DNA of 64,000 nt from a bacterium (GTDB taxonomy: Bacteria > Arandabacterota > Arandabacteria > Arandabacterales > Arandabacteraceae): NCBI GenBank assembly GCA_029933125.1, contig JAOZOU010000004.1:62001-126000 (forward strand), given 5' to 3'. Shown in pieces: positions 27,245-30,688 of this stretch. The translations under genes were made by a program, and so were the position numbers. The stretch's first letter is position 1. Each line of letters starts with the position of its first letter. The notes under the pieces are model-generated. The model saw nothing but the letters and a program-made list of their open reading frames with translations, did not search any database and had not been told where the DNA came from.

Positions 27245-28130
27245 AATCGCTGCCTATGTCGAATCCTTGAGGCCGCTTCAGTGGACAAAGAACCTTGTCG
27301 TCCTGGCAGGCGTGATTTTTTCAAGGAATCTCTTCAGATCTGATATGTTGCTCACAAGTCTCGCAGCTCTCGGGATTTTCTGCCTTCTTTCAGGTGCGGT
27401 TTATGTCTTCAACGATGTCATTGATCTTGAGCAAGACAGGGCCCATCCAGTCAAGCGTAAGCGTCCGGTTGCAAGCGGGAGGATATCAAGGGCTGAGGCG
27501 GTTGGATTTGGAATCGCAGTTGGTGCAGCAGGTCTGATTTTGTCAATCTTTCTAAGCAGCAGTTTCTTCTGGGTTTGTCTCACCTACTTCATTATCAGCA
27601 TGGCTTATTCCTTTGCCCTCAAACACATGGTCGTCCTTGATGTGCTAATAATCTCGATTGGATTTGTTCTAAGAGCTATGGCTGGTGTCGAGGCTCTCAA
27701 AGATATTGATCCTCGTGTTGTCATGTCACCCTGGTTGCTCGTCTGCACCCTCTTCCTTGCTCTCTTTTTGGGTTTCAACAAACGCCGCCATGAGCTTGAT
27801 CTGCTTGCTGATGATGCTGGAAGGCATCGCAAGAGTCTCGACGATTACTCGAAAGAATTTCTTGATGCAATGATAGCGGTTGTCACAGCGGCAACTGTCA
27901 TAGCTTACTCGATCTATACGATCTGGCCTGAGACAGTCAATAAGTTCAACACGCGCAATCTCATCTATACTGTCCCTTTTGTCGTTTTTGGGCTCTTCCG
28001 CTATATGTATCTTGTGATCATGAGAAACAAAGGGGGCAGCCCTTCGGAGATCCTTGTCTCCGATATCCCGCTCGTTGTTGATATCATTCTTTGGCTGCTT
28101 GTTGCTGGGCTCATTCTTTATGAATCCTGA
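27237..28130 (+). CDS. UbiA-family prenyltransferase, decaprenyl-phosphate phosphoribosyltransferase-like
   Basis: Integral membrane protein of 297 residues with about eight or nine helices. It opens [21 protein letters not shown]. The first acidic motif is [24 protein letters not shown], and the second region is [21 protein letters not shown] with [24 protein letters not shown]. These match the DPPR synthase branch, which transfers phosphoribose from PRPP to a polyprenyl phosphate, rather than DGGGP synthase or quinone UbiA. prs lies 1.6 kb downstream. If correct, the product would be a lipid-linked ribose or arabinose donor. Confidence 0.8.
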
Positions 28131-28146
28131 AAGTCAGAGGTGTGGC

Positions 28147-29007
28147 TTGGCAATTGAAGTCAAGTGCCGAGCAAAAGTAAATCTCTTCCTGCGAGTGCTT
28201 GGCAGGCGCCAGGATGGCTACCATGAGGTTGAAACCATCTACCACTCAATTGAGCTCCATGACATCCTGAGATTGAAAGTCCAGAAAAGCGATATCACGC
28301 TTGTCTGCGATCATCCGCTTGTGCCTACCGATGAGACAAACCTCGCCTCCAAAGCTGCAAGGCGCATGCTTGAGGGCTACAGATATGGTGTGAGGATGAT
28401 GCTTGAGAAAAGGATACCCATTGCAGCAGGCTTGGGCGGAGGCAGTGCCGATGCAGCAGGTGCACTGGTTGGGATCAACAAACTCTACCGTATGGGCCTA
28501 TCCCTTCAAGATCTTGAAGAGCATGCTAGCGCGCTCGGAGCTGATGTGAAATTTATGGTAAGAGGAGGATGTGCAGTCGGCAGGGGAAGGGGTGAAGATC
28601 TCGATTTTCTTGAACCTCTCAATGGAATACCCGTTTTGCTGGTCGTTCCCGATTTAGCAGTAAGCACAAAATGGGCTTACGCAAGTCTCAAAATGGGGTT
28701 GACAAGGCCTAAAGCCAATCTTACTATGTTAGCGGACACTCTTAGAGGAGGGAAAATAGGCCAGCTGAAAGACCTCCTGTACAATGACTTCGAGAGTGTT
28801 GTCTTCGAGAGATACCCAATTGTTGCACAAATCAGGCATAAATTGCTGGAGAGTGGCGCATGTGCGTCATTGATGTCGGGCTCTGGACCGGTTGTTTTTG
28901 GAGTATTCCTTGAGGAGGGTGATGCCAGGAGAGCCAGCAAAGAATTGGCAAGCCATGGAAATAGAGTGATCGAGACAGCTTTTGCCACAAAAGGCGTGAC
29001 GGCATAG
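28147..29007 (+). CDS. ispE: 4-diphosphocytidyl-2-C-methyl-D-erythritol kinase
   Basis: GHMP kinase of the MEP isoprenoid pathway, 286 residues. The N-terminus is AKVNLFLRVLGRRQDGYHEVETIYHSI, the ATP loop is PIAAGLGGGSADAAGAL, and SLMSGSGPVVFGVF is near the end. TTG 28147 with AGAGGTG upstream gives the usual length; ATG 28120 inside the preceding gene is an alternative. It shows that isoprenoid precursors are made by the bacterial MEP route. spoVG follows, a common arrangement in bacteria. Confidence 0.92.
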   Translation: MAIEVKCRAKVNLFLRVLGRRQDGYHEVETIYHSIELHDILRLKVQKSDITLVCDHPLVPTDETNLASKAARRMLEGYRYGVRMMLEKRIPIAAGLGGGSADAAGALVGINKLYRMGLSLQDLEEHASALGADVKFMVRGGCAVGRGRGEDLDFLEPLNGIPVLLVVPDLAVSTKWAYASLKMGLTRPKANLTMLADTLRGGKIGQLKDLLYNDFESVVFERYPIVAQIRHKLLESGACASLMSGSGPVVFGVFLEEGDARRASKELASHGNRVIETAFATKGVTA

Positions 29008-29064
29008 GCAAAACGGTTCCTCGTGTCACGGAGCTCTCTGGTCGAGCAGCTCAGGGGGTAGGGC

Positions 29065-29622
29065 ATGGAGATCACTGCCATTAGGGTCACGCCAGTAAGA
29101 GCTAAGAAGGTACTTGCTGTTGCTACGCTTACGCTTTGCGATTGTTTCGTTTTGCGAGCCTTGCGTCTGGTAGTTGGGCGGAGTAGGCGGTATGTGGCGA
29201 TGCCCATACGGCGCACTCAGACAGGGGTATTCGAGGTCTTTCATCCGATAACTTCAGAGGCAAGGAAGACAATTGAGGAAGTGATAGAGGAGATCTATGA
29301 AAAGAGGATTGCAGGCGGGGAGCCCCAGCTTGCGGGAAAGGTCTATCTTGGGTCTTCTTCAGATTTTGTTATAACCGATGTCAAGGTGAAACCCTTTGAA
29401 TCACATAAGCTAAAAGGTTTCGCGAATATGGTTCTCGATAATTGTCTTGCTATCAATGGAGTGAAGATAATAGCAGGCAAGCAGCGCAAATTTATCCAGA
29501 TGCCCAATGTCAAACGTGGCAACAGATTTCGTGATCTTGCCTTTCCAATAAAGCCTGAGATAAGACAGCATATTGAAGATACGATCTTTAGGGAGTATAA
29601 CAAGGTCGTTGATGGCGCTTGA
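29065..29622 (+). CDS. spoVG: Double-domain SpoVG protein
   Basis: SpoVG is an RNA/DNA-binding regulator, normally about 85-100 residues. This protein has 185 residues and two successive SpoVG units. Unit 1 (about 1-82) has MEITAIRVTPV ... RRYVAMPIRRTQTGVFEVFHPITSEARKTIEEVI. Unit 2 (about 98-183) has FVITDVKVKPF ... RKFIQMPNVKRGNRFRDLAFPIKPEIRQHIEDTI. Unit 2 is closer to the canonical sequence and unit 1 is divergent in its middle. It sits between ispE and tRNA-Gln/prs, the usual spoVG neighbourhood. ATG 29065 has AGGGGG upstream. Confidence 0.88.
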   Translation: MEITAIRVTPVRAKKVLAVATLTLCDCFVLRALRLVVGRSRRYVAMPIRRTQTGVFEVFHPITSEARKTIEEVIEEIYEKRIAGGEPQLAGKVYLGSSSDFVITDVKVKPFESHKLKGFANMVLDNCLAINGVKIIAGKQRKFIQMPNVKRGNRFRDLAFPIKPEIRQHIEDTIFREYNKVVDGA

Positions 29623-29647: not shown

Positions 29648-29722
29648 TGGGGCGTCGTCAAGCGGCTAAGACACAGGGCTTTGGACCCTGGATCGGAGGT
29701 TCGAATCCTCCCGCCCCAGCCA
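29648..29722 (+). tRNA. tRNA-Gln(TTG)
   Basis: TGGGGCG (29648-29654) pairs with CGCCCCA (29712-29718), with discriminator G and encoded CCA. The anticodon loop CTTTGGA gives TTG, reading CAA/CAG. The T-arm is GGAGGTTCGAATCCTCC. It lies 25 bases after spoVG and 42 before prs. Confidence 0.95.
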
Positions 29723-29764: not shown

Positions 29765-30688
29765 ATGAGGATCTTTGCTGGTCGAGCCAATAGAGCCCTT
29801 GCTGAAGAGATAGTTCGTTACCTTGGGACGGAGCTTGGAAACTGTGAAATCACTCAATTCGCAGATGGCGAGATCTTCTGCAAATACAATGAGAATATCC
29901 GTGGTGTGGATGTCTTTATAGTCCAGCCGACTTTTCCACCAGCGGATAATCTCCTTGAACTTCTCATAATGATAGATGCTGCGTGCAGAGCATCAGCCCA
30001 CAGGATAACCGCAGTAATTCCGTACTTTGGCTATGCTAGGCAGGATCGTAAGGATCAACCGAGGGTGCCTATTTCAGCAAAGCTTGTGGCAAACCTGATA
30101 ACAATGGCAGGAGCCAATCGCGTCTTAACGATGGATCTGCATGCTGGCCAGATACAGGGATTTTTCGATATCCCCATGGATCACCTCTTTGCAGCTCCTG
30201 TTTTGATTGACTATTTCAAAAGTCTTGAAATCGAGAATCCAACGGTTGTTGCACCCGATATTGGTAGTGTGAGAATGGCAAGAGGTTTTGCAAAACGCCT
30301 TGGAATGCCATTTGCCCTGATTGATAAACGTAGGCCAGCCCATAATGTCTCTATTGTCCTTAATGTCATAGGTGAGGTCAAGAATAGGAACGTCATCATA
30401 ATAGATGATCTCATCGATACAGGTGGAACGATTGTTAATGCAGCAAATGCCTTGCGCAAAGAGGGAGCAGGCGATATTTATGTAGGGTGTACTCATGGTG
30501 TCTTCTCGGGAGACGCTCTCGAGACGATAGATGCATCTCCTATTAAGGAGCTCGTTGTGACGAACACAATTCCACTGGATGGTAAGGGTCCAGTTGACAA
30601 GGTCAGGGTGCTTTCCGTTGCACAGCTCCTTGGAGAGGCGATTCGTAGAATACATGAGGGGGAATCGGTAAGTTCACTCTTTATCTGA
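29765..30688 (+). CDS. prs: Ribose-phosphate pyrophosphokinase
   Basis: PRPP synthase, 307 residues. It shows RIFAGRANRALAEEI, ITQFADGEIFCKYNENIRGVDVFIVQPTFPP, the PYFGYARQDRKDQPRVPISAKLVANLI stretch and the PRPP loop IIDDLIDTGGTIVNAA. ATG 29765 is chosen; a longer frame from 29681 would begin inside the tRNA. PRPP feeds nucleotide, His and Trp synthesis and also the phosphoribosyltransferase-like UbiA protein upstream. Confidence 0.96.
   Translation: MRIFAGRANRALAEEIVRYLGTELGNCEITQFADGEIFCKYNENIRGVDVFIVQPTFPPADNLLELLIMIDAACRASAHRITAVIPYFGYARQDRKDQPRVPISAKLVANLITMAGANRVLTMDLHAGQIQGFFDIPMDHLFAAPVLIDYFKSLEIENPTVVAPDIGSVRMARGFAKRLGMPFALIDKRRPAHNVSIVLNVIGEVKNRNVIIIDDLIDTGGTIVNAANALRKEGAGDIYVGCTHGVFSGDALETIDASPIKELVVTNTIPLDGKGPVDKVRVLSVAQLLGEAIRRIHEGESVSSLFI

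Follow-up and report, generated by a model that had tools for sequence, protein, structure and literature searches.

Two unlike SpoVG domains fused in one chain: a tandem SpoVG conserved in a bacterial order

The crystal structure of B. subtilis SpoVG is a dimer with two positive grooves, according to Burke and Portnoy (PMC4959528), who describe binding of RNA together with weak, non-specific binding of DNA. The mode of binding is disputed, Jutras et al. (PMC3688583) favouring site-specific DNA recognition and PMC4959528 favouring RNA. PMC3688583 describes the S. aureus protein as tetrameric in behaviour and reports that the substitutions K50A and R51A each abolish a detectable shift and that, judged from chimeras, positions 66–71 contribute to DNA specificity. 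Tandem duplication has been described in Listeria monocytogenes, where spoVG I and II (lmo0196 and lmo0197) are two separate genes, 84% identical and, according to PMC4959528, redundant, in contrast to the duplication analysed here, which is fused and strongly diverged. Judged by titles and the opening lines of abstracts, we found no description of a fused double SpoVG in the literature.

The gene occupies positions 29065–29622 (+) of the window, by which we mean the whole 64,000-nucleotide stretch of DNA that was analysed, and forms a single open reading frame of 185 codons with an ATG start and no internal stop. With 185 residues and two domains, the product departs from the canonical SpoVG size of one domain of fewer than about 100 residues. 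The original prediction of two fused SpoVG units is borne out when the halves are scanned separately against PF04026 (cut-off 29.6 bits): residues 1–93 score 70 bits (E 1.9e-19) and residues 94–185 score 79.7 bits (E 1.8e-22, profile positions 3–82 of 82). The N-terminal half, on whose full-length alignment to SpoVG the prediction had been staked, covers profile positions 1–82 of 82. We therefore distinguish an N-terminal domain (residues 1–80, 29065–29304), seen in the PF04026 match and in an AF2 model, a linker (residues 81–102, 29305–29370), delimited by alignment and poorly conserved among relatives, and a C-terminal domain (residues 103–180, 29371–29604), which matches PF04026 and is the high-confidence part of the whole-protein model; all lie on the forward strand. 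The two halves of the window protein share about 28% identity. In a phmmer search the whole protein matches three solved SpoVG sequences, best across residues 1–80, and it scores 125.7 bits, in two stretches, against the NCBIfam septation regulator SpoVG model (cut-off 108). With that equivalog cut-off passed, annotation pipelines would label the protein plain SpoVG and hide its double architecture.

A chance reading frame or an assembly error is ruled out by the occurrence of the same architecture in seven genomes of two families. Separate production of the C-terminal half from an internal start finds no support in the seven genes, which have no in-frame start codon at a common position; in the window gene the sole in-frame start from residue 76 onwards is a GTG at residue 108, within the domain. 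A structured leader 5' of the gene was also rejected, the folding of 29005–29084 giving a z of -0.80, with 44 of 200 shuffles equally good.

The vicinity of ispE and prs is the usual place of spoVG in Firmicutes, and the tandem gene sits in this canonical chromosomal place. Upstream lies ispE (28054–29007, +; TIGR00154, 226.4 bits), whose listed reading frame matches the model only from residue 34, so that its true start is probably later; downstream are tRNA-Gln (TTG anticodon, 29648–29722, +; ARAGORN) and prs (29765–30688, +; TIGR01251, 393.9 bits), the latter listed from 29681 with a match that begins at residue 28 and an ATG at 29765. Further out, the 5' side carries uridine kinase and decaprenyl-phosphate phosphoribosyltransferase, ahead of ispE, and the 3' side ribosomal protein L25, pth and ychF, beyond tRNA-Gln and prs. 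A profile search of the window's genome finds PF04026 at no other place. In all seven related loci scanned tRNA-Gln adjoins the spoVG gene, and by eye, among the matches listed, the relatives' loci keep the same neighbours up to the contig ends. Eight genomes of the phylum were examined: seven, from one order and two families, have the double gene, and the eighth (G007), from another order, has one PF04026 match, a single-domain SpoVG in the same place, with ispE and prs identified by curated models. A scan of contigs with short exact patterns, which would miss the order's other members, returned one locus, a single SpoVG of Elusimicrobia preceded by an open reading frame that resembles ispE by eye.

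Each half adopts the SpoVG fold, in predicted models. Modelled alone with AF2, the N-terminal half (mean pLDDT 85.7) consists of strands followed by one helix, and it matches ten SpoVG chains (E 1.3e-6 to 1.5e-4). Its superposition on SpoVG crystal structures, the comparison by which the original prediction was to be judged, gives rmsds of 1.6–1.9 Å over 82–83 residues with Z scores of 12.4–13.0. The whole-protein model is confident for the C-terminal half only, because every homologue in alignment A4, all of them single domains, aligned there; nor did any set of sequences used in MAFFT trials cover both halves. Its matches to SpoVG chains extend over roughly a single domain. Beside the SpoVG chains, the VIA-align list holds 9l5u (Z 6.8) and 6anw (AcrF10, Z 5.0); kinship with these was rejected, and their lower Z scores are taken to reflect a common arrangement.

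Constraint is much alike in the two halves and far weaker in the linker. Between genera, and leaving aside the close pair G002–G005, the linker is 18–55% identical, compared with 51–78% for the N-terminal and 49–72% for the C-terminal halves, and dN ranges from 0.14 to 0.43 for N-terminal and C-terminal halves alike, dS being high or saturated (the sequences of G002 and G005 are too similar for this comparison). For residue comparisons, numbered as in S. aureus and S. epidermidis SpoVG, the reference was a set of 79 distinct single domains (85 with duplicates included; insertion-bearing and weak ones were left out). Position 42 is glycine in 77 of these 79 and arginine in all 14 halves. The basic doublet at 50 and 51, present in 69 of the 79 singles, is retained in one N-terminal half, the window's own, and in no C-terminal half: position 50 is basic in 75 singles, 7/7 N-terminal and 0/7 C-terminal halves, and position 51 in 72 singles, 1/7 N-terminal halves (again the window's) and 7/7 C-terminal halves. 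In the window protein the equivalents of S. aureus K50-R51 are, by alignment, R49-R50 in the N-terminal half (29209–29214, +) and V149-K150 in the C-terminal half (29509–29514, +), where the first basic residue is lost; with both basic residues kept in the window's own N-terminal half, the related proteins show a stricter complementarity than this one. His62, found in 69 singles, is kept in 7/7 N-terminal halves and replaced by Phe in all seven C-terminal halves; Asp59, found in 77, is kept in 7/7 C-terminal halves and replaced by Glu in all seven N-terminal halves. As the seven tandem sequences form one clade, these residue patterns represent few events, not seven.

The asymmetry of the halves is genuine and has been maintained across the order. 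The first unit had been described as the divergent one, and the N-terminal half has indeed departed from ordinary SpoVG, with Asp26, Asp59 and Phe44 lost, but the C-terminal half has departed too, at other positions, losing His62, Phe29 and Ser49 as well as the basic residue at position 50. The suggestion of two different faces holds, in that the halves differ in residue at most functionally noted positions, including 66–71. Both halves are more basic than ordinary SpoVG (net charge +1 to +8, against a mean of +1.04 and sd of 2.14 for singles), and the arginine at 42 together with the higher charge suggests that the surface has been altered, not preserved. Compared with the single-domain SpoVGs of B. 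subtilis, S. epidermidis, S. aureus, L. monocytogenes and B. burgdorferi, each half belongs to the same family and has the same predicted fold, but the chain carries two unlike domains, arginine for Gly42 in both, a reduced basic doublet and a more basic composition overall.

We would put at roughly 55% the probability that the order's housekeeping SpoVG is an obligate, asymmetric single-chain pair that does the usual nucleic-acid-binding job. Here a single-domain protein, assembled from identical copies, would have given way to a one-chain pair of unlike copies, its halves joined by the linker of about 20 residues and the chain folding as an internal SpoVG dimer or as half of an S. aureus-type tetramer; packing of the two halves like that in the known SpoVG dimer is plausible. 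RNA and/or DNA would still be bound, through two unlike surfaces, the N-terminal domain retaining the HP histidine along with the doublet's first basic residue, the C-terminal domain the second basic residue and Asp59, and both carrying an arginine at the glycine 42 of other SpoVGs. The fusion would fix a 1:1 ratio of the domains and favour N–C over N–N or C–C pairing, so an asymmetric target would be expected. The RNA-binding specificity may have changed, as originally proposed. Counting against the single-chain pair, the model of DNA contact by a doublet on one protomer, as given in PMC3688583, would leave most single halves impaired, and the arginine at 42 and the higher charge point to an altered surface. 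More tentatively, the first basic residue of the N-terminal domain and the second of the C-terminal domain may make up a composite site that reads asymmetric targets, the protein then representing one of at least three separate tandem SpoVG origins, in this order, on plasmids and among exported proteins.

It seems rather unlikely that the halves are instead independent modules, N pairing with N and C with C of other chains, so that the protein bridges two sites or makes chains. Such pairing would be permitted by the linker, some 20 residues long and poorly conserved, and higher assembly is normal in the family, the S. aureus protein being described as a tetramer in PMC3688583, yet the complementary losses at 50 and 51 are easier to explain if the halves share a site. 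Still less probable is that one half works and the other is a prop or inhibitor without nucleic-acid binding, as in pseudo-enzyme pairs: each half has indeed lost highly conserved residues, but the similar constraint and gained charge of the two argue against this, and neither looks decayed.

The double form has parallels elsewhere. SpoVG is present in 187 of 386 sampled genomes across bacteria. Outside the order, and among the matches listed, 29 genomes have two or more PF04026 matches, figures from which a weak second half in one-match genomes of this 386-genome panel could be missing. Renewed searches of 28 of them found double matches in one frame only in G079 and G345, both of which belong to the leader-bearing set described below; the 29th (G047) has two separate frames of single length, each on its own contig. 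A profile of the seven doubles matched 73 of 80 genomes in the phylum of G032, none across both halves.

One parallel is a plasmid protein of 236 residues, WP_002415366.1 (L167, 5992–6702, +), found in four plasmid records and encoded in Lactococcus garvieae by the mobilizable element pLG728-optrA. It likewise has two full SpoVG domains, seen as two PF04026 stretches, in one reading frame, but differs from the window protein in its mobilizable plasmid setting, in an extra C-terminal tail and in halves that are sister to each other. The other parallel is a set of proteins (L079–L088, L090, L091, L150, L152 and L153) in which a leader or lipobox precedes two divergent SpoVG-like domains. Judged by eye from familiar motifs, most of the set start with such a hydrophobic leader or lipobox; one leader resembles the NCBIfam lipoprotein leader, below its cut-off, and the G079 frame reaches the contig end, its start out of view. 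A joint profile built from 12 of these proteins (L079–L088, L090 and L091) matches across both domains in 17 of the 386 genomes, which belong to 9 further family codes. Twelve of these genomes had supplied the sequences of the profile, so that five were newly added by it. Among ten leader-type proteins, Pfam finds two or three SpoVG stretches in four and one stretch in six, so that in several the first domain comes to light through the joint profile alone; L089, which is among the ten, stands outside the profile set and gives a weak single match only. These proteins share with the window protein two SpoVG-like domains per chain, but differ in a leader or lipobox that suggests export and in domains that fall outside the ordinary clade, and at least some of their genomes also carry ordinary single SpoVGs. 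They are probably exported, and one would not expect to meet a nucleic-acid-binding fold on proteins that seem to leave the cell.

Two further loci are unusual in themselves. L078 (1835–2695, -) has three SpoVG stretches by Pfam in a frame ended by the contig end. L168 (2866–4854, +), on an unannotated scaffold from a phage collection, is an open reading frame of 662 residues with one SpoVG domain by Pfam (99–180), ahead of which a further SpoVG-like stretch can be made out by eye; the frame adjoins an open reading frame that resembles a conjugation ATPase by eye.

A phage origin of the window protein was rejected. The P0001 query found no relative of it among viral contigs, and none of the 45 viral SpoVG loci found with a family alignment has a second full SpoVG domain in any open reading frame. 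Where such a locus shows two stretches, we read them as the two sides of one domain interrupted by an insertion. In L117–L122, L125 and L126, on viral contigs, and in L071 and L072, an insertion of about 40 residues splits a single SpoVG domain.

In a tree with 27 singles, the seven N-terminal halves form a starred clade with support of 100/99, the seven C-terminal halves do likewise, and the two together make up one side of a branch at 86/69, which is not starred. For a wider tree (61 rows, 80 columns) two long singles were dropped and the halves of ten exported proteins and of one plasmid protein added. The N-terminal and C-terminal clades both persist; the joint clade is not recovered, yet is not rejected (p-AU 0.46). 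The two halves of the plasmid protein pair together (100/99), which points to a separate duplication, and ordinary, window and plasmid domains group at 99/98 with the exported halves outside, in a tree whose 80 columns are thin for 61 rows and for which the program flags a risk that long branches join up within the exported set. Since each half forms its own well-supported clade, the trees fit one old tandem duplication in the order's ancestor, with separate duplications elsewhere; the plasmid and exported doubles apparently have origins apart from the order's. An in-frame tandem duplication would thus have replaced the single gene in place, between ispE and tRNA-Gln-prs, before the order split into families, and the two domains have since diverged, lastingly and in a complementary manner, while both stayed constrained. 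That the double form is instead old, common to the plasmid and exported tandem proteins and acquired by transfer is very improbable, for although the two-domain layout recurs in those proteins and the exported-double profile matches both window-clade halves at a low score (G002, 55.8 bits, 35–194 of 198), the window halves group with ordinary singles (99/98) to the exclusion of the exported halves, the plasmid halves are mutual sisters and this very position is occupied by a single gene in the sister order.

The tandem SpoVG is a genuine, if modest, departure from a well-known protein, and not a new kind. As a natural single-chain form with unlike protomers, it would allow each surface to change alone, which is impossible in a homodimer. 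The wider tandem set, some of it apparently exported, suggests that SpoVG domains have jobs beyond that of the known regulator, and if the possible composite site were real, tandem SpoVG would be a recurrent and as yet unnamed route to new specificity.
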